From: Streptomyces umbrinus
GTDB taxonomy: Bacteria > Actinomycetota > Actinomycetes > Streptomycetales > Streptomycetaceae
DNA length: 64,000 nt
Assembly: GCF_030817415.1 (NCBI RefSeq)
Contig: NZ_JAUSZI010000002.1
Coordinates: forward strand, 806,001-870,000
Direction: 5' to 3'
The translations under genes were made by a program, and so were the position numbers. Below the pieces are notes generated by a model, which saw only the letters and a program-made list of their open reading frames with translations, searched no databases and was not told the DNA's origin. How positions within the stretch are numbered: position 1 is the first letter of the stretch; each line of letters begins with the position of its first letter. This document shows, in pieces, positions 23,191-41,395 of the stretch.

Positions 23191-23314
23191 CCCCGCTTCA
23201 TCGATGTCCCTGCCTCCACGGACGAAGTCGGCGCGGCCGGTCGGATGAGGTTGTCGCACAGCCGACTCAACCAACGACCGGACGAAGGGCACATACTCCG
23301 GTGGTGCGGATCCA

Positions 23315-23326
23315 TACGCATGCGTA
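23315..23326. promoter_or_regulatory. Palindromic operator candidate between NRPS and LysR genes
   Basis: TACGCATGCGTA is a perfect 12-bp palindrome inside a longer CATACGCATGCGTACGCATG run. It lies in the divergent promoter region of the NRPS-P450 operon and the LysR gene, where a LysR regulator would bind. Confidence 0.5.
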
Positions 23327-23396
23327 CGCATGTCTCGGAGGAACGACCGTGCAGCCGCCAACTCATGCCGACCAGCGCATACTTGGTCGCCCTAAC

Positions 23397-24307
23397 ATGC
23401 CCCCCCGCATGCAACTGGACCTGAATCTCATGGCGGTGCTGGATGCCCTCCTGGAGGAGGGCAGTGCCACAGGGGCTGCAGTACGGCTACGACTGTCCGC
23501 TCCGGCCACGAGCCGCAGCCTCGGCCGGATCCGCCGGATCCGCCGACTCACCGGGCACCAGATCCTGGTCCGCACAGGCCGGATCATGACACCGACGCCT
23601 TACGCCCTGAAAATTCGTGACGAGGTGCACTACCTCGTCGAACAGTCGCGCGCGATCCTCGAACCGAAGCGCGCGCTGAATCTCGGCACCCTGCAGAGAG
23701 CTTTCACCGTCCGGGGAAACGACGCCCTCACAACGGCGATCGCTCCCCATCTCCTCGCAGCGATCCAACAAGCTGGACGTGGCCTGTCCGTGCGGCTGCT
23801 GGCGGAGACCGACATCGACACCAACGATTTGCGGCACGGCACGGTCGATCTGGAGATCAGCTCGACCATGCCGGTCCTGCCGGAGATCAACCATGAAACG
23901 CTCGGTGACGACCGGCTCGTGGTCGCGTTCCGCCCCGACCATCCCTGCGCAGGGACCCGATCGACGTTGCCCTGAATAGCCTCGGCTTGCGGCGCAGAGT
24001 TGTTGCATCCGCCCCCACCAGCACTGCGGCACTGCGGCACTGCGGCACTGCACATCTTCAGCCAGAGCGAGTTGCTCGTCGTGGTGTCCGAGCGGATGTG
24101 CCGGCCGACGCTTGCGGACTCCGCATCAGCACGCCACCGTTTGACCTCGCACCCGTGCCGGTGACCCTGGCCTGGCACCAGCGTTACGACAACGACCAGG
24201 CCCACGCGTGGCTCCGCGCTCAGGTACGCGACTCTTTCGCCGCCTTCCTCGGGCACCGGTTCACGACAGGCGTCGACGCGGCCGAAGCGGGGCCGGCCGA
24301 CGTCTGA
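23397..24307 (+). pseudogene. LysR-family regulator, frameshifted
   Basis: The N-terminal half is intact: a winged HTH (MQLDLNLMAVLDALLEEGS, AVRLRLSAPATSRSLGRIRR, ILVRTGRIMTPTPYAL) followed by part of the effector domain to FRPDHPCAG. A stop follows at 23975. The rest continues in other frames, e.g. DPIDVALNSLGLRRRVVASA, then APVPVTLAWHQRYDNDQAHAW ending at 24307. Four 8-bp units (gcactgcg) at 24021-24052 have expanded inside the coding region, and 8 is not a multiple of three. A 9-bp in-frame duplication (GCCGGATCC) also disturbs the HTH region. The regulator is presumably dead or truncated. Confidence 0.75.
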
Positions 24308-24386
24308 ACAGCGGCGTGGCGTGACCCGGTGGCGCGCACCGGGGGTCAAATGCATACGGGTAAATCTCTCATTGACTATATTGCAT

Positions 24387-24415
24387 TTGAAGCAAGCGAC
24401 GGCTGCTCGTAGTGT
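24387..24415 (+). promoter_or_regulatory. Vegetative-type promoter of the flavin monooxygenase
   Basis: A -35 element TTGAAG and a -10 element TAGTGT are separated by exactly 17 bp, fitting Streptomyces HrdB-type promoters. It lies in an unusually AT-rich stretch. A GCATACG motif just upstream recurs at other cluster promoters. Transcription would start about 35-40 bases before the TTG start codon at 24459. Confidence 0.5.
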
Positions 24416-24458
24416 CGAGACGTGTCTCCGGGCCATACCGCACTAAGGAGTAAAGAAG

Positions 24459-25568
24459 TTGTCCAGGAAATCCACGATAGTCGTCGGTGGCGGCCTTGTA
24501 GGGCTGACAGCAGCAGTCTCCCTCAAGCTCATCGGCCACGAAGTCATCGTGCTGGAAAAGGCACCGCAGATTCGGGCCGTCGGCGCCGGAATCGGCCTGT
24601 GGGCCAACGCGTTGCGAGAGTTCGACCACCTCGGCATCGGCCCGGAAATCCGCGACATGGGCATCGAGCACAACATGTGGTTCTTCAACCCTGCCGGCGA
24701 TCCGGTCCGCGCTCCTGGTTACACCGACAGGGATCACCAGTTCCTGCTCGTACCGCGCCCCGAGTTGAACAACCTCTTGGCCGACACCATCGGTCGCGAC
24801 CGAATCCGCCTCGACGCCCACGTGACCGGATATACCGAGACCGGATCGGACGTCGTCGTGCACCTCGCCAACGGCGAGACACTTCGCACGGATCTACTGA
24901 TCGGCTCGGACGGCGTCCACTCAAATGTGCGCAAGCAGCTGGTGCCGGGAAGCGACGCCGTACCACACTCCGGCCACTACTCCTGGCGTGCGATCGTGCC
25001 GACGGGCAATCAAAACTCAGAGCCCACCGTACTCACCGTCGGCCACCGCCGAACCCGCGGCGGGTACGCGAGGATCGCTCGTGATCGGGCCATGTGGATG
25101 GTCAACCAGTTCGATGCCGGGCCGCTCACCGGAAGCAAGCGCGAACGGGCACTGGAGCGCGCACGGAATCTGACTGAGGCGGGATGGAACGACGACCTCC
25201 TGTCCATGATCGCCGAAACGCCGGAGGAATCCATCCTGGAGAACCAGGTCACGCTGGTCCCGGAACTGCCCCATTGGACCAGCGCGCGCGTCGCTCTGAT
25301 TGGCGACGCCGCGCACGGACTGTCCCCCCACATCGCTTCCGGCGGCACTCTCGGCATCGAGGACGTCGGCGTCCTGCGCAGCATCCTGACAGCCGAGGCC
25401 GACCTGGAAAAGGCCCTCACCACCTACGAGCACACCCGCAGCGCCCGCTTCGACACGGTACGCGAGCACTCCACCGCCGTCGAACATGCCGGCGACGCAG
25501 TCGAATTCGCGCAACGCTACGCCACGTTCAGCCACTGGATGCTCACCACGGCACCTGCTACCCCATAA
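24459..25568 (+). CDS. FAD-dependent monooxygenase (PhzS/salicylate hydroxylase-like)
   Basis: A 369-residue class A flavoprotein hydroxylase. It shows STIVVGGGLVGLTAAVSLKL (GxGxxG), the DG motif LIGSDGVHSNVRKQLV, and RVALIGDAAHGLSPHIASGG. The start is TTG, set by a strong AAGGAG seven bases upstream. Single-component enzymes of this fold hydroxylate aromatic rings, and PhzS of Pseudomonas modifies phenazine carboxylates this way, so a role in tailoring the phenazine made by the operon at 27560-32997 is plausible. The DedA gene follows 66 bases downstream on the same strand. Confidence 0.85.
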   Translation: MSRKSTIVVGGGLVGLTAAVSLKLIGHEVIVLEKAPQIRAVGAGIGLWANALREFDHLGIGPEIRDMGIEHNMWFFNPAGDPVRAPGYTDRDHQFLLVPRPELNNLLADTIGRDRIRLDAHVTGYTETGSDVVVHLANGETLRTDLLIGSDGVHSNVRKQLVPGSDAVPHSGHYSWRAIVPTGNQNSEPTVLTVGHRRTRGGYARIARDRAMWMVNQFDAGPLTGSKRERALERARNLTEAGWNDDLLSMIAETPEESILENQVTLVPELPHWTSARVALIGDAAHGLSPHIASGGTLGIEDVGVLRSILTAEADLEKALTTYEHTRSARFDTVREHSTAVEHAGDAVEFAQRYATFSHWMLTTAPATP

Positions 25569-25634
25569 CCGCCTCCAAGAATTGGGGAATCATTCGTGGA
25601 GTTCCGCATCCGTACGACAGGAGGCGCGTAGCAC

Positions 25635-26255
25635 ATGCCGGACTGGATAAACCTCGCGGAGTCTTTGATAGCGTCACCCACACTCTACGCCGTACTCATT
25701 GCGGTATCCCTACTCGACTCTTTCCTCCCGTTGATCCCGAGTGAACCCGTCGTGATCATCGCAGGCATCGCCGGCGCAACCGGGCAGACGAATATCATGC
25801 TTGTCATTGCCTCTACGACGGCCGGTGCCTTTCTCGGCGACCTCGTTCCCTACTCCATCGGCCGGTTGATGGGGGAACGCGCACTAAAGCGCCTGCCAGT
25901 TGGCACCAAACGCCGGAAGGCGTATGACCGGTTCGAGCGCGAGCTGGAATTACGCGGCGGTTTTGTGCTCGTCTCCACGCGATTCATTCCGGTCGGACGC
26001 TATCTCGCCACGGGAACGGCGGGGGTGGTGAGATACCCGCTGCGCAGGTTCATGTTGTACGTTGCGATTTCCACCTCCACGTGGAGTGCTTATACCGCAC
26101 TGTCGGGATACCTCGGTGGCGTCTTCTTCCAGGAGAACACGCTCCTTTCCATCGCAGTCGGCGTCGGGTTCGCGCTCGCGGTAACCGGCGCGGTGGAGTT
26201 CTCACGGTATGTTCGACGCCGCAACAATCCTGCACACCCCGTACAGAGGCACTGA
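25635..26255 (+). CDS. DedA/VTT-family membrane protein (TTA codon)
   Basis: A 206-residue membrane protein of the DedA (SNARE-associated, VTT) family, proposed lipid scramblases or proton-dependent transporters that also affect resistance to membrane-active compounds. PLIPSEPVVIIAGIAG and the FVLVSTRFIPVGRYLATGTAG region with the conserved R-x-x-P-x-x-R are diagnostic. Four or five hydrophobic segments are visible. An AGGAGG site precedes the ATG. Leu codon 106, at 25950-25952, is TTA, suggesting bldA control. Location beside the monooxygenase suggests a role in self-protection, which is an inference. Confidence 0.85.
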   Translation: MPDWINLAESLIASPTLYAVLIAVSLLDSFLPLIPSEPVVIIAGIAGATGQTNIMLVIASTTAGAFLGDLVPYSIGRLMGERALKRLPVGTKRRKAYDRFERELELRGGFVLVSTRFIPVGRYLATGTAGVVRYPLRRFMLYVAISTSTWSAYTALSGYLGGVFFQENTLLSIAVGVGFALAVTGAVEFSRYVRRRNNPAHPVQRH

Positions 26256-26259
26256 GTTG

Positions 26260-26470
26260 ACGCGCCGGCATCGGCGGAGACAGCTCAGGATCTGGCGAGA
26301 TGGCTGTCGGAAAGGTCCCTCGTGGCCTGAGCCGGCGCCGGCGCCGGGTCCGGGTCCGGGTCCGGGTCCACATCGTCGAACCGGCTCTCCGCGCGGCAAC
26401 ACCGGCTTGTGGCGCGGATGTTCTGTTCGGATGCCGCTGTGGTTCAAGTGCCGGGCGTACCGATCAACCT
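26260..26470 (-). pseudogene. Fossil of an AraC gene duplicated from 18362-19339
   Basis: The stretch 26264-26340 aligns with positions about 18620-18690 inside the AraC gene. The segment tcgaaccggctctccgc corresponds to 18715-18735, and 26395-26465 matches the leader at 19375-19445. Order and orientation are the same, but most of the coding region is deleted and no frame is open. An array of cgggtc hexamers (about 26345-26370) fills one junction. It is a decayed duplicate. Confidence 0.6.
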
Positions 26471-26560
26471 AGGCTCCGGCGGTAGGGCAAACCCGAGCAG
26501 TTCCGGGCCCTGTTGCATACGAAAGACGAGAGACTCGTGAACCAAGAGAGTTCGACCCGC

Positions 26561-27535
26561 ATGGTTGCCATCACTCGTGCCCGTGCCGGCTCAGGCATGG
26601 ACATCCTGAGCGAAGCGATCGGCAGCGTGCGGATCGGGCGGGCCGAGGCCTGCCGGGTCAGGGAGTCGGGCTCTTGGGGCATGCGATTCCCCGCCTTCGC
26701 GGGCAGCGGGTTCCACATCCTCCTGCGGGGCAGTGGCTGGCTGATCCCGGCAACCGGCCGGCCGCGTGCACTCAAGGCGGGCGATGTCGTTCTCACCCCG
26801 TTCGGTGCCGAACTCGGATTCAGTCACGCGCCAGGCCTGCTCAAGGACTTGCCCCCGGCGGCAGAGGTCGTGCGCGAGGATCCGCACAGTCCCGACCCGA
26901 GCAGTCCCGATCCGAGCAGTCCCGATCCGGCCGACGTCGAGTTCCTCTGCGGCGCGTACTGGCTCGACCACGGTCAAGTACATCCGTACTTGAGAGCGTT
27001 GCCCGAGGTCCTCGTGGTTTCACCGGGCCATGACCGCGCCTTGCAACTGCGGTTGCTGGCCGATCTGCTGGCCGTGGACGTGTCCGAGACACAACCGGGC
27101 AGTGGGGCGACCCGCCCCGCGCTCCTGGACCTGCTGCTGACCCACGCTCTGCGCCAATGGCTGGAGCAGAACCGCGACGCCGACCGGCCGGAGATCGGCG
27201 ATCCCGCCATCGCCGTCGCCTTGCGCGAGATCCATTCGAGCCTGCACAAGCCGTGGACGGTGCAGCAGCTCGGCCAGAGTGTAGGGATGTCGCGGACTGC
27301 GTTCACCAAACGATTCACCGCGATGGTGGGAACGCCACCCATGACGTACCTGACCGGTCGGCGCCTGAGCCACGGGGCCCGTCTGCTCCGGGAGACCAAG
27401 GCGCCACTGGCGAACATCGCCCGTCAGGTCGGCTACTCGACGGAATTCGCGTTCGGAGCCGCTTTCCGCCGTGAGTACGGCATTTCACCAGGCCGTTTCC
27501 GTGACCTGGAGTCCCGCCGGGCCTGTGGAGCCTGA
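26561..27535 (+). CDS. AraC-family regulator with N-terminal cupin
   Basis: A regulator of about 324 residues with a cupin_6-type ligand domain and a C-terminal AraC HTH. The cupin part starts MDILSEAIGSVRIGRAEACR and contains HILLRGSGWLIPATG and LKAGDVVLTPFG. The HTH includes WTVQQLGQSVGMSRTAFTKRF and APLANIARQVGYSTEFAFGAAF. An inserted SPDPSSPDPSSPDP comes from three 15-bp repeats in frame. TTG 26513 and GTG 26537 are possible longer starts, but homology supports a start near 26561. It is convergent with the phenazine operon and could be its regulator. Confidence 0.85.
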   Translation: MVAITRARAGSGMDILSEAIGSVRIGRAEACRVRESGSWGMRFPAFAGSGFHILLRGSGWLIPATGRPRALKAGDVVLTPFGAELGFSHAPGLLKDLPPAAEVVREDPHSPDPSSPDPSSPDPADVEFLCGAYWLDHGQVHPYLRALPEVLVVSPGHDRALQLRLLADLLAVDVSETQPGSGATRPALLDLLLTHALRQWLEQNRDADRPEIGDPAIAVALREIHSSLHKPWTVQQLGQSVGMSRTAFTKRFTAMVGTPPMTYLTGRRLSHGARLLRETKAPLANIARQVGYSTEFAFGAAFRREYGISPGRFRDLESRRACGA

Positions 27536-27561
27536 CCCGGGCGATGGGGCCGGCCAGGCTC
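27528..27561. terminator. Convergent terminator between AraC and phzF
   Basis: GAGCCTG and CAGGCTC form a 7-bp stem, extended by imperfect GC pairs, spanning the stop codons of the two convergent genes. It would end transcription from both sides. Confidence 0.5.
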
Positions 27562-28396
27562 AGGCGAGGAGGGTTCCGTGGGCGGTGATGACCGTTGATC
27601 CTTCGACCTCGACCGTGTCCAGTTGACGGCTGTTGCCCTCTGCCCTGGCGAACATCTGGGACGGGCGGCCCATCTCCACACCTTGGACGATCTCGATCCG
27701 CTTCCCGAACGGGACGAGTCCGTAGCGCGCGAGATGCACCGCGAGCGGGCCGGCGGCCGATCCCGTCCCCGCGTCCTCGCTCACGCCGTAGGCCGGGGAG
27801 AACATCCGCATCCGCCAGTGCTCTCCCGAACCCGTGAAACAGATGGCGGCCATGTCCGGGTGTCTCGCCAGCGCCCGCAGATCGGGCTGGACCCGGGCGA
27901 GGGCCGCCACACTCTCGACTCCGACGTAGACGTGCCGGGGCCCGTTGCGGTAGGCGTCCACCGGAAGGGTCGAGGATTCGAGGCCGAGCGCGTCGAGGAG
28001 TTCGCCCTGCCGCCCGTATGGCTCCCGGACCGGGATCGGCTGGCGCATGGCGGCCGTGACCGTCCGCTCGCGTCGATGGCTGAATTCGATCGGGATGGTG
28101 CCGCCCGCGGTTTCGAGCCGTAACCGGTCCACCGCCGTTGACACGCCCAGCACCGCGGCTGTGCCCAGTACCGGGTGCCCGGCGAACGGCAGTTCGTTGA
28201 CCGGGGTGAAGATGCGGACCCTCCGGTCGCCGTCGGCCCGGGCGGGGAGGACGAACGTCGTCTCCGAGAGGTTCATCTCGCGGGCGATCAGCTGCATCCT
28301 CTCGGCGGGGATGCCGACCGCGTCCGGGAAGACGGCCAGGGGGTTGCCCTGCAGGGCGACCGTGGTGAACACGTCGACGATCACGTACTGGTGCAT
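27560..28396 (-). CDS. phzF: PhzF-like trans-2,3-dihydro-3-hydroxyanthranilate isomerase
   Basis: A 278-residue enzyme of the PhzF/diaminopimelate-epimerase fold. PhzF isomerises trans-2,3-dihydro-3-hydroxyanthranilate (DHHA) to the reactive aminoketone that dimerises toward phenazine. The catalytic Glu45 is present at exactly residue 45 (NLSETTFV). FTPVNELPFAGHP and the EDAGTGSAAGPLAVHL loop carry the conserved His and Asp. The family also includes non-phenazine members, but the surrounding phzB, phzD and phzE homologues fix the role. Codon 92, at 28121-28123, is TTA. It lies 7 bases after the flavoprotein gene and ends the operon. Confidence 0.9.
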   Translation of the reverse strand: MHQYVIVDVFTTVALQGNPLAVFPDAVGIPAERMQLIAREMNLSETTFVLPARADGDRRVRIFTPVNELPFAGHPVLGTAAVLGVSTAVDRLRLETAGGTIPIEFSHRRERTVTAAMRQPIPVREPYGRQGELLDALGLESSTLPVDAYRNGPRHVYVGVESVAALARVQPDLRALARHPDMAAICFTGSGEHWRMRMFSPAYGVSEDAGTGSAAGPLAVHLARYGLVPFGKRIEIVQGVEMGRPSQMFARAEGNSRQLDTVEVEGSTVITAHGTLLA

Positions 28397-28403
28397 GGTG
28401 GGT

Positions 28404-29933
28404 TCAGTCTCCTGCCGCTGCTCTGCCTGCCAGGGCGCCGAACACGAGGGCCTGGCCGATCGTCGCGCCGGTGCCCGGGTAGGCGGACCCGAACGGGCCG
28501 GCGGCGACGTTGCCCGCGGCGTACAGCCCCGGTACGGCCGTTCCGTCGTCTCGCAGTACACGCCCGTCGGGATCGGTGTGCGGGCCGCCGCTGGTTCCGC
28601 CGAGTCCGGGGCGTACCGGCACGGCGTAGAAGGGTGGTGAGTACAGGGGACCCAACGTCGGGTGGACGGCGCCGGGATCGCCCATGACGCCGTCGTAGGG
28701 GTTCGTTCCTCGGTCGTGGTCCGGATCCTCGCCGGCGGCCGCCGCCCAGTTGAATCGGCTGATCGTCTTGGCGAGCGCGTCGCCCGGGACATCGATGAGA
28801 CGCGCCAACTCCAGCAGTGTGCAGGCGCGTTGCAGCCAGTCCGGGTCGGGGTCACCGGGGCGGACCGGGCCGATCGGATAGCGGCGGCGGTGGGCGGCGT
28901 CGACGATCAGCCAGGACGGTTCGGTCGGGTGCAGCGATCGGCCGACCTCGTGGTAGCTCCGGGCCTCGTTGGTGAACCGGTGACCGTCGCAGTCGACCAG
29001 CACCGCACCGGGGCGCGCACGCTCGGCGAGGAGGATCCGGTGCACGGGTTGGCCGTCGATCGCGTCGCCGGGTATCCGGATCGTCGGGCACCACCAGGCC
29101 TGCGACGTGTTGTGCAGCGCGGCCCCGGCGGCGATGGCCATGCGCAGCCCGTCACCGCGGGCGCCCGGTGCTCCGGTGAGGCCGGCAACCGGGCCGCCGA
29201 GGAATCGCCGGACGAACGCCTCGTCGCGTTCGAAGCCACCCGTCGCGAGTACGACCCGTCCGTCGAGCGGAGTGCCGTCGACCGCCACGCCGGTGCCGAG
29301 GAACCTCGTCGCTCTGGCGTGTGTGCGGATGGTGACGCCCGCGTCGATGGCGGCCGTGAGCAGTGCGGCCACCAGTGCCTGCCCCGCGGTGTGTATTCCG
29401 GCCTGTCTGCGCTGCCCGATGAGGTCGGGTGCGGCTTTGCCGGTGAGGAGTTCGGTGAGGGTCGCCCGCGACCGCCAGGGCAGGGCGGCGCGCATGAGGG
29501 CGGCGACCTGCGGTGTGGTGCGGAACGGCCGTGGTTCGAGCGACCGTCCGGCGCCGTACCCGCCCGGCAGCGTGCCGTGGCAGTCCGGTATGGGAAGGGT
29601 GGCCCAGCGCAGCGGTGTCCTCATCTCGAGCCATTCGGCCACGCGCGGTGCCTCGTCGACGAACCGGTCGGACATGGCGGTGTCCGCGGGCACGTACCCG
29701 TATTCGTCGGAGCGGCTGAGCGAACTCAGATACGTACGGGCGCGTTGCCGGGTGTCGTCGGCGGCAAGCGGCAGGTGGTTGCCGGGCAGCCAGGCCGCCC
29801 CGCTGGACAGGGCGGTGGTGCCGCCGATCGTCGAGGTCGCTTCGACAACTGTGACCTCGGCGCCCGATTCCCGTGCCGACAGGGCCGCGGCCAGCCCCGC
29901 CGCGCCCGAACCGACGACGACCACCGAGGTCAT
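28404..29933 (-). CDS. FAD-dependent oxidoreductase, KstD/fumarate-reductase type
   Basis: A 509-residue flavoprotein. The N-terminal FAD site is VVVVGSGAAGLAAALSARES. IGGTTALSSGAAWLPGNH is the conserved loop of 3-ketosteroid dehydrogenases and fumarate reductases. The C-terminal GGTSGGPHTDPDGRVL and PGLYAAGNVAAGPFGSAYPG complete the FAD pocket. These enzymes remove or add hydrogens across C-C bonds next to carbonyls. Its start overlaps the phzB stop (ATGA), so it is an integral member of the phenazine operon. It occupies the place of the missing PhzG oxidase and could oxidise a reduced phenazine precursor; that substrate is inferred. Confidence 0.85.
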   Translation of the reverse strand: MTSVVVVGSGAAGLAAALSARESGAEVTVVEATSTIGGTTALSSGAAWLPGNHLPLAADDTRQRARTYLSSLSRSDEYGYVPADTAMSDRFVDEAPRVAEWLEMRTPLRWATLPIPDCHGTLPGGYGAGRSLEPRPFRTTPQVAALMRAALPWRSRATLTELLTGKAAPDLIGQRRQAGIHTAGQALVAALLTAAIDAGVTIRTHARATRFLGTGVAVDGTPLDGRVVLATGGFERDEAFVRRFLGGPVAGLTGAPGARGDGLRMAIAAGAALHNTSQAWWCPTIRIPGDAIDGQPVHRILLAERARPGAVLVDCDGHRFTNEARSYHEVGRSLHPTEPSWLIVDAAHRRRYPIGPVRPGDPDPDWLQRACTLLELARLIDVPGDALAKTISRFNWAAAAGEDPDHDRGTNPYDGVMGDPGAVHPTLGPLYSPPFYAVPVRPGLGGTSGGPHTDPDGRVLRDDGTAVPGLYAAGNVAAGPFGSAYPGTGATIGQALVFGALAGRAAAGD

Positions 29934-30439
29934 GCCACCTCCCCGTCGGTGGGGATCCCGCCCCTCTTGACGACGGGTACCTCGATGCCCAGAGCCCGCA
30001 TCTGCTCGCAGGGATTCATGAACTCCCGTATCTCCGCGATCTTTCCGTTGTCGAGGCGGAACGAGTGGATGAAGTGGTTGCGGTAGTGGCCCGGCGGATA
30101 GTGGGGGAAGATGATCTGCCCTTCTCCGTCGCACTCGACCCATATGCGGTTGGGGTCCTGGGTCTCGTGGATCTCGACGTTGGTCCAGCGCCAGTCGGGG
30201 AAACACTCGAGCGACCACGCGGCCATCAGGTACAGGTTCTCCCGTCCCGTGACAGCGGCCGGTTGTCCGGTGTCGGTGGTCCAGAGGCCGCCCCGCGCGT
30301 CCTCGGTGAACAGGTGGTGGCGTCGGAGCCTCGCCGGTCCTTCCGTCATGTCCAGGTATCGCTCCACCGTGGCCCGGTTGGTGCGGCGGAGTTCGGAGTC
30401 GTTGTCGACCCACTCCTGGGGCCTCGTGTGTTGGGTCAT
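29930..30439 (-). CDS. phzB: PhzB-like phenazine-forming condensation protein
   Basis: A 169-residue SnoaL/NTF2-fold protein closely matching the PhzA/B family, which helps two aminoketone molecules condense into the tricyclic phenazine skeleton. Diagnostic runs are RRTNRATVERYLDM, GGLWTTDTG, WSLECFPDWRWTN, IWVECDGEG, NHFIHSF and REFMNP with the catalytic Glu. At the position of the usual active-site His73 (as in LAEHAVWSL) this protein has Met72 (LYLMAAWSL), while the nearby Ser is kept. The ATG at 30439 follows GAGGAGATCG. Only one phzA/B copy exists, as is usual outside Pseudomonas. Confidence 0.92.
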   Translation of the reverse strand: MTQHTRPQEWVDNDSELRRTNRATVERYLDMTEGPARLRRHHLFTEDARGGLWTTDTGQPAAVTGRENLYLMAAWSLECFPDWRWTNVEIHETQDPNRIWVECDGEGQIIFPHYPPGHYRNHFIHSFRLDNGKIAEIREFMNPCEQMRALGIEVPVVKRGGIPTDGEVA

Positions 30440-30472
30440 GGTCGATCTCCTCGGTCGCGGGTTGGGCATGTG

Positions 30473-32377
30473 TCAGGCCAGCGCCTCGTCGATGCGCGCG
30501 GCGAAGAGGGCGGGGCCGTTGCGGGTCAGCACCGACTCGGCGTGGAACTGCAGGGAGGCGAAGCCAGGTCCGCGAAGTGCGTGCACCTCGCCGGTGCCTG
30601 CGTCCCGACCGACCTCCACCAGGCCGACCCCTGGCACGTCGAGCTTGTCGGTGTCACTGTGCGCGGCGAACGTGTTGTAGAAGCCCACCGTCTCGTTCTC
30701 GCCGAACAGCTCGATCTCGCGTTGCGTGCCCTGGTGCGGCACAGCACCGCGGCGCACGTCCAACCCGAGTACCAGGCTGAGCAGTTGGTGGCTCAGGCAC
30801 ACGGCGAGGAACGGCTTCCGCCCGGCCAGCAGCCTCTCGATCGCCTCGCGCAGGTGGGAGTTCCTGGGATCGTCGGCGACTCGGGGATCGCCCGGCCCGG
30901 GGCCCAGGACCACAAGATCGTCCGCTTCCCATGAGTAGGGTTCGTCCCAGCGCCGGACGGTCACCACCAGGCCCAGTGAGCGGAGTTGCGCGGCGATCAT
31001 CGCGGTGAACATGTCCTCGGCGTCCACCACCAGGACCCGGCGCGAGGAGGACACGGGCGTCGGCGGTGGGTGTTCGGTGGCGGCGAGCCAGAACCCGGCG
31101 AGGCCGCGTCGGCGGCGTTGGAGCAGGTCCCGTACGTACGGATGCTCGCCGAGCGGGCGACGGCGGCCGGGTCCGGGGCGGGCCGCGGCCCCCGGATCGG
31201 TGGACATGGCTCGGAGCAGGGTCGCCGCCTTGGCGCGGGTCTCCGCCACCTCGGCCGCCGGATCCGAGTGCCGTACGAGCGTGGCGCCGACCCCTGTCCG
31301 TACCTGACCCGTCGGATCGAGATCCGCCGTACGGATCATGATGGCCGAGTCGAGGCGGTGGCCGCCTGTGGGGTCGCGGCCGATCAGCGCTGCGACCCCG
31401 CCGTAGTAACCGCGCCCGGCCGGCTCGTACCGAGTGATCACCCGGCATGCGCTGGCCAGCGGGCTGCCGGTCACCGTGGGCGCGAACATCGTCTCCGACA
31501 GGATGTCCAGCGGATGCCGGCGGGACCGGCCCGTGATGAGGTACTCGGTGTGCGCGAGCCGTGCCATCTCCTTGAGCCGCGGCCCCAGGACCCGGGCACC
31601 GCCGCTGTCACAGACGCGGGCCATCATCTTCAGTTCCTCGTCGAGCACCATGTGCAGCTCGTCGGATTCCTTGTGGCTGTCCAGGAACGCCATCAGTCCG
31701 GCCAGGGTGGGGCCGTCCTCGGGATAGCGGTACGTGCCGCTGATGGGGTTCATCACCGCGTCACCGTCGTGCAGGCTGACGTGGCGTTCCGGCGTGGCGC
31801 CGACGAACGTGCGTGTGCCGGTGTGGATGAGGAAGGTCCAGTACGCGCCCGACTCCTGTTCGCACAGCCGGCGGAAGACGGTGCGTGCCACGTCGAGGTC
31901 GTAGTCGGCGATACGCCCGGCGAAGCGTCGTCCGAGCACGAAGTTGGAGCCCGCGCCCTTCCCGATCTCGTCGCTGACGATCCGTTCGACGGTACGGGCA
32001 TAGGTGTCGTCGTCGGTGTCGAAGTGCCCGTCGACGAGCCGGACCGGGACCTCGGGTATGCGTCGGAGCAGATCGTGCAGCGGCACCACCGCCTGCTCGG
32101 TGATCAGCATCGCGATCAGCGGCGCACCGTCGTCTACACAGTCGAGGCCACGTTCGCGGAGCTGCCGGTAGGGGATGACCGTCAGGACCTCATGCCCCTG
32201 GCCGTCTTCGGTGCCCTCTTCGGCCACCGGGACATCGGCGAGCCTGTCCGGCATGCACAACTCGCCTGTCAGTACGTCGAGTTGATGTCGCCCGGTCCGT
32301 TCCGGGCGGTGCAGCAGGGCGAACGGGGGCGGCTCCGCTGCCAGCACCCGGCGGAGCAGACCTGACGTACCGTTCAC
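30473..32377 (-). CDS. phzE: PhzE-like 2-amino-2-desoxyisochorismate synthase
   Basis: A 634-residue fusion of a chorismate-utilising domain (about 1-430) and a class I glutamine amidotransferase (about 445-634), the length and layout of PhzE. It converts chorismate and glutamine to 2-amino-2-desoxyisochorismate. The synthase part has FVGATPERHVSLHDG, NPISGTYRYP, DELHMVLDEELKMMARVC and FAPTVTGSPLASACRVI. The amidotransferase has the nucleophile Cys in FLAVCLSHQLLSL and the His-x-Glu in LQFHAESV. The GTG start overlaps the phzD stop (GTGA). Anthranilate synthase is the alternative, but the adjacent phzD argues against it. Confidence 0.93.
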   Translation of the reverse strand: MNGTSGLLRRVLAAEPPPFALLHRPERTGRHQLDVLTGELCMPDRLADVPVAEEGTEDGQGHEVLTVIPYRQLRERGLDCVDDGAPLIAMLITEQAVVPLHDLLRRIPEVPVRLVDGHFDTDDDTYARTVERIVSDEIGKGAGSNFVLGRRFAGRIADYDLDVARTVFRRLCEQESGAYWTFLIHTGTRTFVGATPERHVSLHDGDAVMNPISGTYRYPEDGPTLAGLMAFLDSHKESDELHMVLDEELKMMARVCDSGGARVLGPRLKEMARLAHTEYLITGRSRRHPLDILSETMFAPTVTGSPLASACRVITRYEPAGRGYYGGVAALIGRDPTGGHRLDSAIMIRTADLDPTGQVRTGVGATLVRHSDPAAEVAETRAKAATLLRAMSTDPGAAARPGPGRRRPLGEHPYVRDLLQRRRRGLAGFWLAATEHPPPTPVSSSRRVLVVDAEDMFTAMIAAQLRSLGLVVTVRRWDEPYSWEADDLVVLGPGPGDPRVADDPRNSHLREAIERLLAGRKPFLAVCLSHQLLSLVLGLDVRRGAVPHQGTQREIELFGENETVGFYNTFAAHSDTDKLDVPGVGLVEVGRDAGTGEVHALRGPGFASLQFHAESVLTRNGPALFAARIDEALA

Positions 32378-32997
32378 GGCAGGACGTCCTCCGCGGTGAC
32401 CACGACAGCGCACTTCCGCGCGGCGTACTCCAGGGCGAATCGATGGTCCTGCGCCGAGAAGTCGGCGACAGCGTCGGCCACGACGAATGGCTGAACGTCG
32501 TTGCTGAACGCGTCGACCGCGCTGGCCAGGACCCCTATATGGGCGTACACCCCGCAGATGACGAGCTGATCGGCATTGTGCCGGCGCAGCCATGCCAGTA
32601 ACTCGGTACGGAAGAACGCGCTGTACCGCCACTTCGTGAACACCCCGTCCAGCGGCCCGGGTTGCAGTGGTTCAGGCACGTCACGGTCGGCCGGCTCGGC
32701 TGACATTCCCGCACCCCAGAAGTCGGCGAGCAGGCCGCGCTGCGACGGGTCCATGCCACCGGGCTGCATGGTGTACGCCACCGGCATGCCAAGTGCCCGG
32801 CACCGGTCCAGTACCGAGACCGTGTTCCGTACGAGCTGACTGGTCATGGTGTCGGGAAAGGGGCGCAGGAAGTACCGCTGCATGTCATGTATCAACAACG
32901 CGCCGCGCCGCGGGTCGACCGTCCAGTCGGCCACGTTCTTCGGCAGGTCCGCCGGTATCGGCAACGGGTACGACTCGATGTCCGCGATGCCAGTCAT
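32374..32997 (-). CDS. phzD: PhzD-like isochorismatase (DHHA-forming)
   Basis: A 207-residue isochorismatase that hydrolyses 2-amino-2-desoxyisochorismate to DHHA and pyruvate. Catalytic Asp38 is in LLIHDMQRYFLRPF, the conserved Lys is in FTKWRYSAFFRT, and ICGVYAHIGVLASAVDAF matches PhzD closely, with Gly in place of the cysteine-hydrolase nucleophile region. AAGGA lies seven bases before the ATG. The Leu at 32599-32601 is a TTA codon, so the first gene of the operon should need bldA. The promoter must lie in 33001-33371. Confidence 0.92.
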   Translation of the reverse strand: MTGIADIESYPLPIPADLPKNVADWTVDPRRGALLIHDMQRYFLRPFPDTMTSQLVRNTVSVLDRCRALGMPVAYTMQPGGMDPSQRGLLADFWGAGMSAEPADRDVPEPLQPGPLDGVFTKWRYSAFFRTELLAWLRRHNADQLVICGVYAHIGVLASAVDAFSNDVQPFVVADAVADFSAQDHRFALEYAARKCAVVVTAEDVLP

Positions 32998-33000
32998 GCT

Positions 33001-33371
33001 GAATTCCTTTTCGGCTTACGGCGGTTCGGCCGGGGTGGCTCGTGAAGTTGCACGATCCGTGGTGCCCCGGCGTCGACTACGACGGCCTACGCAACCACCG
33101 CCTCTTGCCCCACAGCCATACGCGCAAGGCCGCGATCCATACGCGTCTGAGCCTGATGTACTGCGCCCAAGGCAGTGAGCAGAGTTGGCTACTGAATGAT
33201 CAGAAGTTGGCTGAACAGCCAGCTGGGTTCACGCGTACAGTGCGGCAGCAAGGCTGAAGATCATCTGACCGGCCCGGACGTCTGGAACCTGCCCAGTCCT
33301 GGCTTTGGGACACACGGCATCCGCGTCCATTCCCACGAACACGTTCAGAAATTGCTCTGGAGACACACCTG
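33001..33371. promoter_or_regulatory. Noncoding leader and control region of the phenazine operon
   Basis: No convincing gene is present in these 370 bases. Two exact copies of CCATACGCG lie at 33116-33124 and 33137-33145, 21 bp apart (two helical turns), about 120-150 bp upstream of phzD. The same CATACG core occurs in the NRPS/LysR divergent region and a related GCATACG before the monooxygenase and AraC genes. This looks like a regulator binding site. No clear -10/-35 pair could be fixed. Confidence 0.45.
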
Positions 33372-33923
33372 ATGAAGCTAGCCAAGCGGCTTGTCCTCAC
33401 CACCACGGCTCTCGCCACTGTCACCGCCGCCACGCTCGTAGGCGCGACGGTCGGCCCGGCGGCGGCTTCGCAGCCCGCCCGCACCGGCGTCGAGGTACCC
33501 GACGCGCTGAAGGTCCCGGACGGCAACCGGCTCACCGGCGTCTTCTCCGCCGAAGGCGTCCAGACCTACACCTGCACCGACGGCGCCTGGAAGCTGCTGG
33601 AGCCCGCTGCCACCCTGTGGGCCAAGAAGGACCACTCGCGCCGCACGGTCGCCCTCCACTCCCGCGGCCCCGTCTGGGTGTCCACGGTGGACGGCAGCGC
33701 CGTCAACGCCGCCGCCGTTGCCACCTCCCCCAAGGCCGGCACCATCCCCGAACTCCTCCTGAAGTCCACCGCCACTCGCGGCACCGGGGTCTTCGCCGAC
33801 GTCTCCTACATCCAGCGCCTCAACACGCGCGGCGGCGTCGCTCCCACCACCGCCTGCACCGGCACGGACCAGACGAGCGTCCCGTACTCCGCCACCTACA
33901 CCTTCTACAAGCCCGCCAAGTAA
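33372..33923 (+). CDS. Secreted DUF3455 protein
   Basis: A 183-residue predicted exported protein. A signal peptide covers about the first 32 residues (MKLAKRLVLTTTALATV, cleavage near AAASQP). The mature part has VPDGNRLTGVFSAEGVQTYTC and WVSTVDGSAV, the features of DUF3455. Two cysteines in the mature part (TYTCTDG and TACTGTD) could form a disulfide. The family is widespread in actinomycetes and fungi without a known function. It is followed by a strong terminator, so it is probably monocistronic. Confidence 0.88.
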   Translation: MKLAKRLVLTTTALATVTAATLVGATVGPAAASQPARTGVEVPDALKVPDGNRLTGVFSAEGVQTYTCTDGAWKLLEPAATLWAKKDHSRRTVALHSRGPVWVSTVDGSAVNAAAVATSPKAGTIPELLLKSTATRGTGVFADVSYIQRLNTRGGVAPTTACTGTDQTSVPYSATYTFYKPAK

Positions 33924-33931
33924 TGCGGTAG

Positions 33932-33984
33932 GCAGCAACGGCAGTGGCCCCTGGGCGATTTCGAGGGGCCACTGCTGTTGCTGC
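33932..33984 (+). terminator. Strong intrinsic terminator of the DUF3455 gene
   Basis: A 20-bp stem, GCAGCAACGGCAGTGGCCCC paired with its complement at 33965-33984, has only one G-T wobble and a 13-base loop. It begins nine bases after the stop codon. Confidence 0.85.
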
Positions 33985-34106
33985 CCCCGGCAGCAGAACG
34001 TACGACGTGGACAGAAGCCATGCACCGGACCGACCTCCGGCCGCTACGCTCGGTCCGGTTCGAACAAACGACGACCGGTGGGTGTCCAGGCCGCCGGGAA
34101 GGAAAC

Positions 34107-35675
34107 GTGAGAGAGCGCGTGATATCCGGAGATGGCGATCACCAGGCGGGGATACGTTCGGAACGCGGTTCGGGGCGGCTGATCGCCGGTCGATATCTGC
34201 TGCACGACGTCCTCGGCAGAGGCGGCATGGGCACGGTCTGGCGGGCTCATGACCAGTTGCTGGACCGCCCGGTCGCCGTCAAGGAACTCCACATCCTCAC
34301 CCACGGCGACGAGGAGCAGCGGGTCCGGGTGCGTCGTGCGGTCCGTGAGGCGCGCGCGGTCGCGCGGGTGCCGCACCCGCATGTGGTGGGCGTCCATGAC
34401 CTGGTCGAGTCCGAGGACCGGCTGTGGATCGTCATGGAACTCGTCCAAGGGCCCTCGCTGGCCCACCACATCGCCGAGACCGGACCACTCACCCCGCAGC
34501 GCACCGCCTCCCTCGGACTGCAACTGCTCGACGCGCTGGAGGCCGTGCACGCGGCCGGCACCCTGCACCGCGACGTCAAACCGGCCAACGTCCTGCTCCG
34601 CCGCGACGGCAGCGCCGTCCTCACCGACTTCGGCATCGCGGTCCTGGACGACGGCGAGTTCCTCACCACCACCGGCGAGCTGATCGGCTCGCTGGAGTTC
34701 ATGGCCCCTGAGCGGGTGATGGGGTCGGAGGTCGGCCCGGCCTCCGACCTGTGGTCCCTGGGCGCGACCCTGGCCACGGCGTGCGGCGGGCTGTCCCCGT
34801 TCCGCAGACCGGCACGGCCCGCCACACTCCACGCGGTGGCCTACCAGGAACCCGCCCTGAGCGAGCGGCTCGGCCCGCTGCTCCCGGTCATCGAGGCACT
34901 CCTGCGCAAGTCCCCCGACGCACGCCCCACTGCGGCCAGTACGCGCGACGCGCTGCACCGCGTCGCGGCGGGACACATGGACGCCGGACCGCTGCTGCCG
35001 TCACCGACCGCCCACGCATCCTGGCCCGCGCCCCTGCTGGCCGACGCGGACACCATGACCAGCGGCCGACAGGGCCTGGTCCCGGCCGGACAGACCGCAC
35101 CGACGGCAACGCACACCACCTCGCTCAGGCCCACGCCCCAGCCCTCGTCCCGCCACCGGGGCGCGAAGCGGCTGTTGTGGGCGATGGTCGGAACTGCGGT
35201 GCTGGCGGCGGGCGTTGGCGGTGGCCTGTTCCTCACCGGAGTGCTGCCGCTCAAGAAGGACCCCGTCACGACGACCACCCGCCAGGCCGTGAAGTCCACG
35301 ACCGGCTGGCAGAAGGTGACCGGAGTGACCGTCCAACCAGGAGACAAGGTCACCGTGCGCTTCGTCTCGGGCCAATGGACCGTCGACCACGTCAGCCTCC
35401 CCATGACCGGCCCGGTCGGATACAACGCGGCCATCGACCAGTCACTGGACGGCGCGAAGGACTGCAAGATCAAGCCCGCGGCACCGTTCGGCGCCCTCCT
35501 GGCACGCCTCGCCGGCGAAAAGGCCCTTCCCATACGCTCCGTCGGACGGAAGCTGACCTTCAAGGCGGCCAACAACGGCACCCTGCAACTGGCCATCAAC
35601 GACGAGGCCGACCGATGCGTCCAGGACAACAGAGGCACCGTGACCGTACAGGTCAGCGTCACGCACCAACCTTGA
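34107..35675 (+). CDS. Membrane Ser/Thr protein kinase with LecA-like extracellular domain
   Basis: A 522-residue receptor-type kinase. The kinase domain (about 28-290) has GRGGMGTVW, catalytic Lys59 (VAVKEL), HRDVKPANVLL and DFGIAV, so it should be active. A Pro/Thr-rich linker leads to a single membrane helix near 354-376 (LLWAMVGTAVLAAGVGGGLF). The extracellular part (about 397-520) resembles the galactose-binding lectin LecA/PA-IL: VQPGDKVTVRF, PFGALLARLAGEKALPI, NNGTLQLAIND and GTVTVQVSV. The GTG at 34107 follows GGAAGGAA. It may sense a sugar or cell-wall glycan; this is an inference from the domain. Confidence 0.85.
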   Translation: MRERVISGDGDHQAGIRSERGSGRLIAGRYLLHDVLGRGGMGTVWRAHDQLLDRPVAVKELHILTHGDEEQRVRVRRAVREARAVARVPHPHVVGVHDLVESEDRLWIVMELVQGPSLAHHIAETGPLTPQRTASLGLQLLDALEAVHAAGTLHRDVKPANVLLRRDGSAVLTDFGIAVLDDGEFLTTTGELIGSLEFMAPERVMGSEVGPASDLWSLGATLATACGGLSPFRRPARPATLHAVAYQEPALSERLGPLLPVIEALLRKSPDARPTAASTRDALHRVAAGHMDAGPLLPSPTAHASWPAPLLADADTMTSGRQGLVPAGQTAPTATHTTSLRPTPQPSSRHRGAKRLLWAMVGTAVLAAGVGGGLFLTGVLPLKKDPVTTTTRQAVKSTTGWQKVTGVTVQPGDKVTVRFVSGQWTVDHVSLPMTGPVGYNAAIDQSLDGAKDCKIKPAAPFGALLARLAGEKALPIRSVGRKLTFKAANNGTLQLAINDEADRCVQDNRGTVTVQVSVTHQP

Positions 35676-35772
35676 TGGGTGGCAACTGGGCCCCGGTCGC
35701 ATTCGTCGCGTCCTGGGGCCTGTCACTCCAACTCCTCACCGGCCGACTCTCCCCCCACCACCTGACCGGCGT

Positions 35773-36426
35773 TCAGGGCTCGATGAGGCCGACGCGGATG
35801 GCGTAGCGGGTGAGTTCCAGGCGGTCGCGCAGGCCCAGCTTCTGGAGGAGGTTGGTGCGGTGGCGTTCGACGGTTTTGGCGCTGATGACGAGGAGGAGGG
35901 CGATCTCCTTGGAGGTGTGGCCCTCGGCGACGAGTTTGAGGATTTCCTCTTCGCGTTCGGTGATGGGGCGGGCGGGCAGTTGTTCGCCGGTGCGGGCGCG
36001 GTCTAGGTAGGTGCGAATGAGAGTGGTCTCGGCGCCGGGGTAGATGAAGGGTTCGTCGCGCAGGGCGGCGCGGCAGGCTTCGACGAGGTCTCGGTCGGCG
36101 ACGGATTTGAGTACGTAGCCGGAGGCGCCGGATTTGAGGGCCTCGAAGAAGTACTGCTCGTTGTCGTACATCGTCAGCATCAGGGTGCGCAGGCCGGGGC
36201 GGAGGCGGGCCAGTTCGCGGGCGGCCTGCAGGCCGGTCCGGCGGGGCATGGCGATGTCGAGTATGGCCAGGTCGATGTCGTTGCCGCGGGCCTGGGCGAT
36301 GGCTTCGGCGCCGTCGGAAGCCTCGGCCACGACAGTCAGGTCCGGCTCGGCGTCGAGGATGAGGCGGACGCCGTGGCGGACCAGGGCGTGGTCGTCGGCG
36401 GGCAGGATGCGGGCCGGTGTGGTCAT
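35773..36426 (-). CDS. NarL/LuxR-family response regulator (orphaned)
   Basis: A 217-residue response regulator with a receiver domain (PADDHALVRHGVRLIL, phospho-acceptor in DLAILDIAMPRR, Lys in GYVLKSVADRDL) and a LuxR HTH (ITEREEEILKLVAEG, AKTVERHRTNLLQKLGL). The ATG at 36426 overlaps the stop of a sensor-kinase stub; a GTG one codon earlier is possible. Because the kinase is deleted except for its last codons, the regulator must use another phospho-donor or be inactive. Confidence 0.9.
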   Translation of the reverse strand: MTTPARILPADDHALVRHGVRLILDAEPDLTVVAEASDGAEAIAQARGNDIDLAILDIAMPRRTGLQAARELARLRPGLRTLMLTMYDNEQYFFEALKSGASGYVLKSVADRDLVEACRAALRDEPFIYPGAETTLIRTYLDRARTGEQLPARPITEREEEILKLVAEGHTSKEIALLLVISAKTVERHRTNLLQKLGLRDRLELTRYAIRVGLIEP

Positions 36427-36500
36427 CACGCTGTCTCCTGGGTGCGGTCGGCGGCTGCGTGGCCGTTGACGTTCAGGCGTATCTCGGTGCCGTCGTGGGG
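36426..36500 (-). pseudogene. 3' stub of a deleted sensor histidine kinase
   Basis: The minus strand reads GPHDGTEIRLNVNGHAAADR before a TGA that overlaps the response-regulator start. GTEIRL-type endings are the last strand of NarX-class kinases. Upstream of about 36500 no kinase sequence remains, so about 1 kb or more of the gene has been lost. Confidence 0.55.
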
Positions 36501-36621
36501 CCCTGGCCGATCTGGAACTACCGGCCGGTCACACCGGTCCACCCCCACCATCACCGAGACACCCCAGAACCGGGACCTGGTCCCAAGTCCCGACGCACCT
36601 GCCGAGAAGTAACCACCGGGG

Positions 36622-36710
36622 GTTCGCGGAAAGCCAGGGGCGCAGCCCCGCCTTCAGGGGCGCGGGGAACTGCGCGACCAGCCCCCACCCACCCGCACCC
36701 GACAACACAC
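36622..36710. repeat. Dispersed Streptomyces intergenic repeat
   Basis: The segment ggggcgcagccccgcctt followed by aggggcgcggggaactgcgc and gaccagccccc matches a short sequence seen in many intergenic regions of Streptomyces genomes. It can form GC-rich hairpins. Its role is unclear; it is recognised from general knowledge of the genus, not from a search. Confidence 0.6.
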
Positions 36711-36747
36711 GCCGAACCCCCACCCTGCGTCGGTAAGCTCACCGATC

Positions 36748-37083
36748 ATGACCGTTGCGCGTTCCGTTGCCCTGTTCGTCGTGGCCGCCCTGTTCGAGAT
36801 CGGCGGGGCCTGGCTGGTCTGGCAGGGCATCCGCGAACACAAGGGCTGGATCTGGATCGGCGCCGGTGTCATCGCCCTCGGTCTCTACGGCGTGGTGGCC
36901 ACCTTCCAGTCCGACGACAACTTCGGACGCATCCTCGCCGCGTACGGCGGGATCTTCGTCGCCGGGTCGATCGCCTGGGGCATGGTCGCCGACGGCTACC
37001 GGCCCGACCGGTACGACGTCATCGGCGCGTTGGTGTGCCTCGCCGGGATGGCTGTGATCATGTACGCGCCTCGCAGCAACTGA
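36748..37083 (+). CDS. YnfA family (UPF0060) membrane protein
   Basis: A 111-residue protein with four membrane helices. [30 protein letters not shown] is the first half and [28 protein letters not shown] the second, each with family landmarks. The final helix is [15 protein letters not shown]. YnfA proteins resemble small multidrug resistance proteins but have no settled substrate. Confidence 0.9.
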
Positions 37084-37177
37084 GCGCCGTCGCCTCGCAG
37101 TCGCTGGGTTTGACGGACGGCCGTGTCCCAAGTGCCACGGCGGAGTAAGAGGAACACATCCCCGGGCCCAGGCCGAC

Positions 37178-37459
37178 TCATGACCGGGGCAGCCGGAGGC
37201 GGCGTCGGCGGGACGTGTCGAACAGGTTCACCGCGCAGGCCGCCGCGACCAGCCCGGCCGCGAGCAGCAGCCCGTGCGGGAGAACAGCGCCGACGACCAC
37301 CGCACTGAGCGCGAGTGTCATCGCCAGCCACGCCCTGCCTCGGCGGTATTCGCGCGGGCGGCGGGGACGTCCCCGGCCGAAGCCATGGGCGAAGCGGGGG
37401 TCGTCGAGCCGCAGCCGGGCCTCGAGGCCGGCGATCCAGTCGTCGTCGGATTGCGGCAT
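37178..37459 (-). CDS. DUF3040 membrane protein
   Basis: A 93-residue protein with a soluble N-terminus (DDDWIAGLEARLRLDDPRFA, the DUF3040 signature), a basic stretch and two adjacent membrane helices (AWLAMTLALSAVVVGAVL and GLLLAAGLVAAACAVNLF). The ATG at 37459 follows GGAGCGG. Function unknown. Confidence 0.82.
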   Translation of the reverse strand: MPQSDDDWIAGLEARLRLDDPRFAHGFGRGRPRRPREYRRGRAWLAMTLALSAVVVGAVLPHGLLLAAGLVAAACAVNLFDTSRRRRLRLPRS

Positions 37460-37783
37460 GTTCCGCTCCTTCCACAGCAGTTGGGGCGAGCGAGGGCTAA
37501 GTCCAGCGGCCACACGCACAGGAACGCGTCGCCACAATGAACAGCACCATCAGCCGGTACGGTCGTCAGCCGGCCCTCTTCGACACCGTCAGCCATGTCA
37601 TGACACTCGCGTCCAGCCCCGCCCTCGGAAGGGCAATTCGCCCGGGCCACGCTCGCGGGCGGTGCTCCTTCACCTCACTCTCACCCAGCCCGCCACGCCC
37701 GCGCATCGGGGACGGCACCCATCCTCGTCCCCTGGCAGCGGGGTATCCACGCGCACCGGAGGCGCCGCACCTACCATGACGGC
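37460..37783. other. Intergenic region, no gene recognised
   Basis: This stretch of 324 bases separates the divergent DUF3040 and VOC genes. Open frames in it have no recognisable product and no convincing start. It should contain promoters for both flanking genes, but no clear elements were identified. Confidence 0.5.
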
Positions 37784-38125
37784 ATGCCCCTCGACCTCTT
37801 CGCAGGCATCCCCGTCAACGACTACGCAACTGCACTGCCCTGGTACGAGCGACTCCTCGGCACCCCGCCGACGTTCTTCCCGCACGACACGGAAGCCGTA
37901 TGGGAACTGGCGGAACACCGGTACGTGTACATCGTGCAGCGGCCCGGTCAGGCGGGAAACGCCGTGCACACCGTCCTCGTCGACGACCTCGACACCCGTG
38001 TCGCGGGGATCGCCGACCGGGGTCTGGAGCCCACGAGCCGCGAGACCTACTCGGAGGGCATGCGCAAGGTCACCTACCACGACCCGGACGGCAACGAGTT
38101 CGGGTTCGGCGGCGCCGCACACTGA
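37784..38125 (+). CDS. VOC-family (glyoxalase/bleomycin-resistance fold) protein
   Basis: A 113-residue single VOC domain. IPVNDYATALPWYERLLGTPP is the usual first beta-alpha unit, HTVLVDDLDTRVAGI the third and YHDPDGNEFGFGG the last, with the metal-ligand Glu in NEFGF. Such proteins act as metal-dependent isomerases, dioxygenases or drug-binding proteins. The substrate cannot be assigned. Confidence 0.85.
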   Translation: MPLDLFAGIPVNDYATALPWYERLLGTPPTFFPHDTEAVWELAEHRYVYIVQRPGQAGNAVHTVLVDDLDTRVAGIADRGLEPTSRETYSEGMRKVTYHDPDGNEFGFGGAAH

Positions 38126-38152
38126 CGCCGCCGTGCGATGAGCCGCTCTCTG

Positions 38153-38975: not shown

Positions 38976-38981
38976 AAAGGG

Positions 38982-41391: not shown

Positions 41392-41395
41392 ACGA

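Follow-up and report, generated by a model that had tools for sequence, protein, structure and literature searches.

The 64,000-nucleotide stretch of Streptomyces umbrinus DNA analyzed here (the window; contig NZ_JAUSZI010000002.1, positions 806,001 to 870,000, renumbered from 1) harbors a phenazine (phz) operon of five co-directional genes, all intact, on the minus strand at window positions 32997-27560. Their order is phzD-phzE-phzB-flavoprotein-phzF, the fourth gene encoding an enzyme dependent on flavin adenine dinucleotide (FAD). The genes are listed below with bit scores to protein families and solved structures and with the ratio of nonsynonymous to synonymous substitution rates (dN/dS) between the window and the Streptomyces phaeochromogenes copy of the operon.

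32374..32997, minus strand: phzD, isochorismatase-type enzyme converting 2-amino-2-deoxyisochorismate (ADIC) to dihydro-3-hydroxyanthranilate (DHHA), 207 amino acids; PF00857, 140 bits; 1nf9, 277 bits; dN/dS 0.23
30473..32377, minus strand: phzE, anthranilate-synthase-like ADIC synthase with a glutamine amidotransferase (GATase) domain, 634 amino acids, GTG start; PF00425 and PF00117; 3r74, 676 bits; dN/dS 0.19
29930..30439, minus strand: phzB, 169 amino acids (179 if started at the ATG at 30469); PF03284, 245 bits; 3b4o, 226 bits; dN/dS 0.16
28404..29933, minus strand: flavoprotein, FAD enzyme with a predicted 3-ketosteroid delta1-dehydrogenase (KSTD)/cyclohexanone dehydrogenase fold, 509 amino acids
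27560..28396, minus strand: phzF, DHHA isomerase, 278 amino acids; TIGR00654, 166 bits (above the cut-off); 1t6k, 348 bits; dN/dS 0.18

The original prediction had described this gene order with ATGA or GTGA overlaps or short gaps at the junctions, and reading the junctions bore it out: phzD and phzE share a GTGA overlap (32374-32377), and phzE and phzB are separated by 3 nucleotides if phzB starts at the ATG at 30469 or by 33 if it starts at the ATG at 30439, ahead of which lies GAGGAG. The coupling of the flavoprotein gene between phzB and phzF, likewise predicted, is seen in an ATGA overlap with phzB (29930-29933) and in the position of phzF 7 nucleotides beyond. For each Phz protein the structure listed above is the top solved-structure match and its namesake. 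The catalytic residues said to be intact are all present: PhzE carries the cysteine of the motif AVCLSHQ, which we take to be catalytic, PhzD carries Asp38, at a position that differs between 1nf9 and 1nf8, and PhzF carries Glu45. The last of these is named as required in the available text of PMC5524880. The dN/dS values of all five genes fall between 0.16 and 0.23, indicating that the operon is kept under purifying selection.

Comparison of PhzB with its relatives revealed a feature beyond the original account of the operon, namely Met72 at the position of His73 (Burkholderia cepacia PhzA/B numbering, following the part of PMC11998002 available to us). In a tree of the window protein and 120 listed relatives, 19 of the 121 sequences form one clade (support 100/99), in which this position is Met throughout; it is His in 102 of 102 other PhzB sequences and in 55 of 55 PhzB open reading frames (ORFs) of stretches from congeners, two sets that may share members. 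The clade includes all eight sequences with evidence of linkage to the flavoprotein (the window and seven others), and none of the other 102 has such evidence. All 18 full-length clade members (the partial sequence P0174 was left out of the residue table) share Arg38, Arg41, Asp57, Trp76, Ser77, Trp86, Glu140, Gln147, Arg160 and Pro164; 14 of them have Ala at the Ile62 position and 17 have Val at the Ile64 position. Since the lining residues Arg38, Arg41, Ser77 and Glu140 are kept, PhzB probably still condenses units resembling amino-oxo-cyclohexene carboxylate (AOCHC; named so in the available text of PMC5524880).

The flavoprotein belongs to the FAD_binding_2 family and not to PNPOx. Its modeled fold is like that of solved KSTDs, and the closest folds to the model are enzymes desaturating cyclic ketones, cyclohexanone included. 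According to the available text of PMC5348764, the ketone substrate of KSTD is enolized by Tyr487 and Gly491, its C2 proton is removed by Tyr119 and Tyr318, and the C1 hydride passes to FAD. Tyr487, Gly491, Tyr119 and Tyr318 correspond to Tyr485, Gly489, Cys118 and Tyr327 of the flavoprotein in a profile alignment to 4c3x, a correspondence drawn by hand from the sequence-profile alignment, the model containing neither ligand nor flavin. In a quick tree of the window protein, 118 of 120 listed relatives (two of less than 440 amino acids were dropped) and six outgroup sequences, 33 of the 125 sequences form one clade (Shimodaira-Hasegawa-like approximate likelihood ratio 100). Tyr327, Tyr485 and Gly489 are invariant in 119 of 119 flavoprotein sequences, clade and sisters alike. 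At the position of KSTD Tyr119 the 33 clade members have Cys (27), Asn (4), Trp (1) or Thr (1), and all 86 sisters have Tyr; the position of Leu447 is Gly in all 33, and Leu (83), Val (2) or Ile (1) in the sisters. Clade and sisters have no residue in common at four columns (118, 159, 445 and 488), three of which are KSTD pocket positions (Tyr119, Leu447 and Pro490) in the table of PMC5348764, as far as it was available. Arg299 and Arg305 are candidate residues for binding the carboxylate of a substrate such as AOCHC or 3-oxocyclohexanecarboxylate.

The designation of this enzyme as KstD-type thus holds in part: the predicted fold and three of the four catalytic residues agree with it, but with Tyr119 lost and scores far under the KstD cut-offs (PRK12844, 339.8 bits against 789; PRK07843, 317.8 against 788) the protein is KstD-like and not a KstD. 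The second-best NCBIfam model is NF053676, 4-oxocyclohexanecarboxylate dehydrogenase (328.6 bits, cut-off 1000); NF053677, 4-oxocyclohex-2-ene-1-carboxylate dehydrogenase, scores 263.1 bits (cut-off 900). A reading of the flavoprotein as a fumarate reductase was ruled out, since in sequence and fold comparisons alike the higher scores belong to KSTDs and cyclohexanone dehydrogenase.

The absence of PhzG from the window was confirmed in six-frame searches, in which 15 PhzG queries gave no PNPOx/PhzG match. The genome (12.4 Mb, estimated 100% complete, with one PhzA/B gene) encodes three proteins with a PNP_phzG_C domain, all distant from the window, and none of them is a PhzG: in comparisons with 38 PhzG proteins of other phz loci none exceeds 112 bits, and those PhzG proteins score a median of 227 and a minimum of 162 bits against one another (13 of the 41 sequences compared have over-long ends, thought to be of little effect). 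For one of the three, compared with the PDB, the top matches are pyridoxine phosphate oxidases (113 bits), ahead of PhzG (96 bits). With all three scoring below any PhzG-PhzG pair, a PhzG encoded elsewhere in the genome was ruled out, and no phzG clustered with phz genes outside the window was found. Two of the genome's PNPOx paralogues (L085 and L086, contig G000:C2), neither PdxH-like nor PhzG, are related to each other (~195 bits), and congeners encode counterparts of them.

PhzG is otherwise a regular companion of PhzB in the genus. Of 392 genomes sampled, 45 gave a strong PhzA/B match (>200 bits), 44 without S. umbrinus itself; 24 genomes above the family cut-off at no more than 40 bits and 26 below the cut-off were not counted. 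Around the congeners' PhzB genes 46 stretches were fetched (L038-L083, at most 20 kb long and less where a contig ended), and a PhzG lies within the fetched stretch in 38 of the 44 genomes. Among the remaining six, a true PhzG is encoded elsewhere in three (G299, G167 and G028) and a fragment closest to PhzG in a fourth (G099), so that a PhzG or PhzG fragment occurs in 42 of the 44; none was found in G030 or in G050 (82% complete, with a 3-kb contig). The G028 stretch (L050, G028:C650), whose PhzG is on another contig, carries phzD-phzE and phzB, with phzF on the opposite strand and an O-methyltransferase gene; its PhzE is the nearest to the window PhzE among the 46 stretches (828 bits) and its gene is followed by a 112-amino-acid ORF with no Pfam match.

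None of the 46 congener stretches contained a match to the flavoprotein. A search of 5.8 billion proteins returned 2183 relatives of the flavoprotein, 393 of PhzB and 8000 of PhzF, of which the best 120 of each were used. Seven flavoprotein-PhzB pairs come from contigs of equal size and the same source or name: S. axinellae (572466 bases), Embleya NBC_00888 (5731424), Saccharopolyspora ASAGF58 (8045912), Lentzea NEAU-D7 (114338), Actinoplanes NBRC 103695 (34894), and contigs of 7106 and 11277 bases. Five more flavoprotein-PhzF pairs were found in the same way, in S. chartreusis (11080497 bases) and on contigs of 140520, 47936, 5323 and 2579 bases. Equal contig size makes a shared contig likely and does not thereby establish adjacency; conversely, because the lists were clustered at 90% identity and the best 120 were used, a missing pair is uninformative.

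Two further loci were read as DNA. The S. phaeochromogenes copy (L088) is 92.7% identical to the window over positions 26400-35675, and the two PNPOx genes of its draft genome are neither of them PhzG. On the Embleya plasmid (5.7 Mb, with no PNP_phzG_C match) the PhzB gene is directly followed by that of a flavoprotein 59% identical to the window protein, and the locus also holds phzE, phzD and phzF, all inside 9 kb, and a gene for a LuxR-type regulator, with nitrate reductase and transposase genes outside. No PhzG was found in any of the three flavoprotein loci.

The named members of the flavoprotein clade belong to eleven actinomycete genera (Streptomyces, Embleya, Kitasatospora, Micromonospora, Lentzea, Amycolatopsis, Kibdelosporangium, Saccharopolyspora, Pseudonocardia, Actinoplanes and Acrocarpospora), five of which (Streptomyces, Embleya, Saccharopolyspora, Lentzea and Actinoplanes) show evidence of phz linkage, and the clade includes all 14 linked sequences. 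The flavoprotein is thus a standing partner of phz genes and not a stray insertion, and the agreement of the two trees indicates that the altered PhzB clade and the flavoprotein clade are co-inherited. The PhzB-flavoprotein type is rare: in flavoprotein searches S. umbrinus alone gave a high score among 394 and 355 genomes of its class and among 394 of its family (draws that overlap), the family sample also containing six homologues of 42-45% identity (L091-L096). Of 70 genomes from another genus in the family none matched, in a search run without a positive control, and a scan of genome contigs gave one locus.

Our favored explanation, which we hold to be probable if by a modest measure, is that an FAD enzyme with a KSTD/cyclohexanone dehydrogenase fold replaces PhzG and is coupled to a re-tuned PhzB. 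Judging from the intact families and residues, PhzE, PhzD and PhzF would convert chorismate to AOCHC by their ordinary steps, and the modified PhzB, with Met for His73 and with Glu140 and the binding arginines kept, would condense two AOCHC units. The flavoprotein, in place of the FMN (flavin mononucleotide) oxidase PhzG, would then oxidize the carbocyclic ring or rings: Tyr327 would deprotonate the carbon alpha to a ketone or imine that is polarized by Tyr485 and Gly489, and FAD would take the beta hydride, as in KSTD. The net result would be a dihydrophenazine or phenazine carboxylate made without PhzG. The analysis established the gene content, the lack of any PhzG among the matches in this genome, the co-inheritance of two altered proteins, the fold, and the active-site residues kept and lost; the step order, substrate and product of this route are our inference. 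The suggestion in the original prediction that the flavoprotein may stand in for PhzG is therefore partly supported, by gene content (no PhzG in this genome or in the other loci read) and by the separate PhzB clade; chemically, the enzyme may aromatize the core as PhzG does or may lead to a different hydrogenation state.

Several observations weigh against replacement of PhzG by the flavoprotein. Some pathways can do without PhzG because the oxidation can proceed spontaneously, which would weaken the need for a substitute. G030 has a His73-type phzB with phzF (L063, G030:C10) and neither PhzG nor flavoprotein was found in it; the fetched stretch shows this pair only, with no phzD or phzE seen, and is perhaps a remnant cluster. 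In G050, an 82% complete genome, PhzG was likewise not found. The PhzG search in Embleya covered the plasmid alone. Linkage in the twelve pairs rests on equal contig size with source or name, Embleya alone having also been read, and two of the three loci read as DNA are from close relatives. Nineteen of the 33 flavoprotein clade members lack linkage evidence and may or may not have a phz context, and in an approximately unbiased test of whether PhzE of the three flavoprotein loci forms one clade p was 0.33, compatible with either history of the core genes. Lastly, a PhzB that lacks His73 may have ceased to perform the canonical condensation, which would change the substrate of the flavoprotein.

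An alternative is that the flavoprotein acts on AOCHC no later than ring closure, desaturating it towards a dienone or 3-hydroxyanthranilate, and that the His73Met PhzB joins a differently oxidized pair, giving a tricycle, or a non-phenazine aminophenol product, unlike that of the PhzG route. The PhzB site is altered in the same clade, at His73 and at the Ile62 and Ile64 positions, which the exchange of a late oxidase alone would not require; the phzB and flavoprotein genes overlap, the fold neighbors include cyclohexanone dehydrogenase, and NF053676 scores second, though below its cut-off. We nonetheless consider early desaturation unlikely, given that Arg38, Arg41, Ser77 and Glu140 of PhzB are kept, so that condensation of AOCHC-like units is probable, and that no gene using 3-hydroxyanthranilate was recognized among the scanned neighbors. 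On a bolder and tentative proposal, to which we give a little more weight, PhzB(His73Met) and the flavoprotein constitute a new two-enzyme ring-forming and oxidizing module off the hexahydrophenazine-dicarboxylate route: the flavoprotein, acting at ring closure or earlier, would desaturate an aminocyclohexenone carboxylate, and PhzB would join the differently oxidized halves into a skeleton unreachable with PhzG.

It is quite improbable, in our estimate, that the core is oxidized spontaneously or by unspecific enzymes and that the flavoprotein serves to tailor a phenazine already complete or almost so, for instance by setting a reduced ring. The spontaneous oxidation of condensation products in phenazine pathways and the G030 pair are in keeping with this, but phzB and the flavoprotein gene are neighbors in each of the two locus types read, none of the three loci has a PhzG alongside them, and in Embleya no tailoring enzyme was recognized near the five genes and the LuxR-type regulator. 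Least credible of all is a decaying or non-functional cluster with the flavoprotein as a bystander. Such decay would account for the loss of both PhzG and the PhzB histidine, and the available text of PMC11998002 suspects the pseudomonad PhzA, with altered catalytic and binding residues, of being inactive; it is difficult to reconcile with the low dN/dS between two species in all five genes, or with the fixation of Met73 in 19 PhzB sequences and of the core catalytic residues in 33 flavoproteins from several genera.

The missing phzC, in contrast, carries no weight. In line with the original prediction, six-frame searches of the window gave no class II 3-deoxy-D-arabino-heptulosonate 7-phosphate (DAHP) synthase match; the significance attached to this did not hold and was dropped, because such a gene was seen nearby in 32 of the 46 other phz stretches and not in 14, some of them short contigs, and because class II DAHP synthases are encoded elsewhere in the genome. 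A second, shorter one (362-amino-acid ORF; L087, G000:C2, ~2841600-2842660) is distant from the phz operon; the ORF next to it has an N-terminus that resembles a dinucleotide-binding motif.

A possible regulator lies next to the operon:

26513..27535, plus strand: AraC-family regulator with Cupin_6 and HTH_18 domains, convergent with phzF

It has a counterpart in S. phaeochromogenes and no match in the Embleya locus. Further away (20126-23361, minus strand), genes for an adenylation-peptidyl carrier protein (A-PCP) didomain of the nonribosomal peptide synthetase type and a cytochrome P450 overlap head to tail; they are kept beside the phz operon in S. phaeochromogenes and are probably a separate aminoacyl-hydroxylation pair, rejected as core parts for having no match in the Embleya locus. 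A FAD_binding_3 monooxygenase gene (24459-25568) and a VTT/DedA gene (25635-26255), in the region 23400-26300, are absent from the otherwise syntenic L088, a difference that is an insertion or deletion adjoining the operon; with no match in the Embleya locus or the S. phaeochromogenes stretch, they too were rejected as core parts. Upstream of the operon (33978-43785) lie three genes for Ser/Thr protein kinases, one of which includes a PQQ (pyrroloquinoline quinone)-like repeat domain.

A 2020 survey reports, in its available text, the core set phzA/BCDEFG in all producer genomes, its gene collection tolerating one missing gene (PMC7591250). In searches of open-license papers on phenazine genes, no title or abstract beginning described a PhzG-less phenazine cluster with such a flavoprotein, which is weak evidence of absence. 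What is new is the pairing of the flavoprotein with a distinct PhzB clade that lacks the active-site His73. The presence of relatives of the altered pair in other actinomycetes suggests a possible second way of finishing a phenazine-type core. The pair allows a direct test of the role of His73 in PhzB and of core oxidation, can serve as a query for phenazine clusters that would count as incomplete under PhzG-based rules, and suggests that the substrates of the KSTD fold may include a small-ring, carboxylated class.

Compared with known systems, the operon shares its compactness and its PhzE, PhzD, PhzF and PhzB families with the canonical phzA/B-C-D-E-F-G operon of Pseudomonas, Burkholderia and Streptomyces, key residues included (PhzB Glu140 among them, His73 excepted), and differs from it in that no PhzG was found in the genome, an FAD flavoprotein stands amid the core genes, and PhzB has Met for His73. 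PhzG (1ty9, 4hms), a PNPOx-family protein with FMN, would have the same presumed role as the FAD_binding_2 flavoprotein, oxidation of a phenazine precursor, in a different family. From the 3-ketosteroid delta1-dehydrogenases (4c3x, 7p18) the flavoprotein is set apart by Cys at Tyr119, Gly at Leu447 and its phenazine-operon setting. The cyclohexanone dehydrogenase of Alicycliphilus denitrificans (8am3, 8am6, 8am8), which to our knowledge is not part of a phz operon, matches the predicted fold at ~30% identity over the aligned part, and the enzymes of NF053676 and NF053677, below both of whose cut-offs the window protein falls, are KstD-like flavoproteins annotated as desaturases of a cyclic keto acid.

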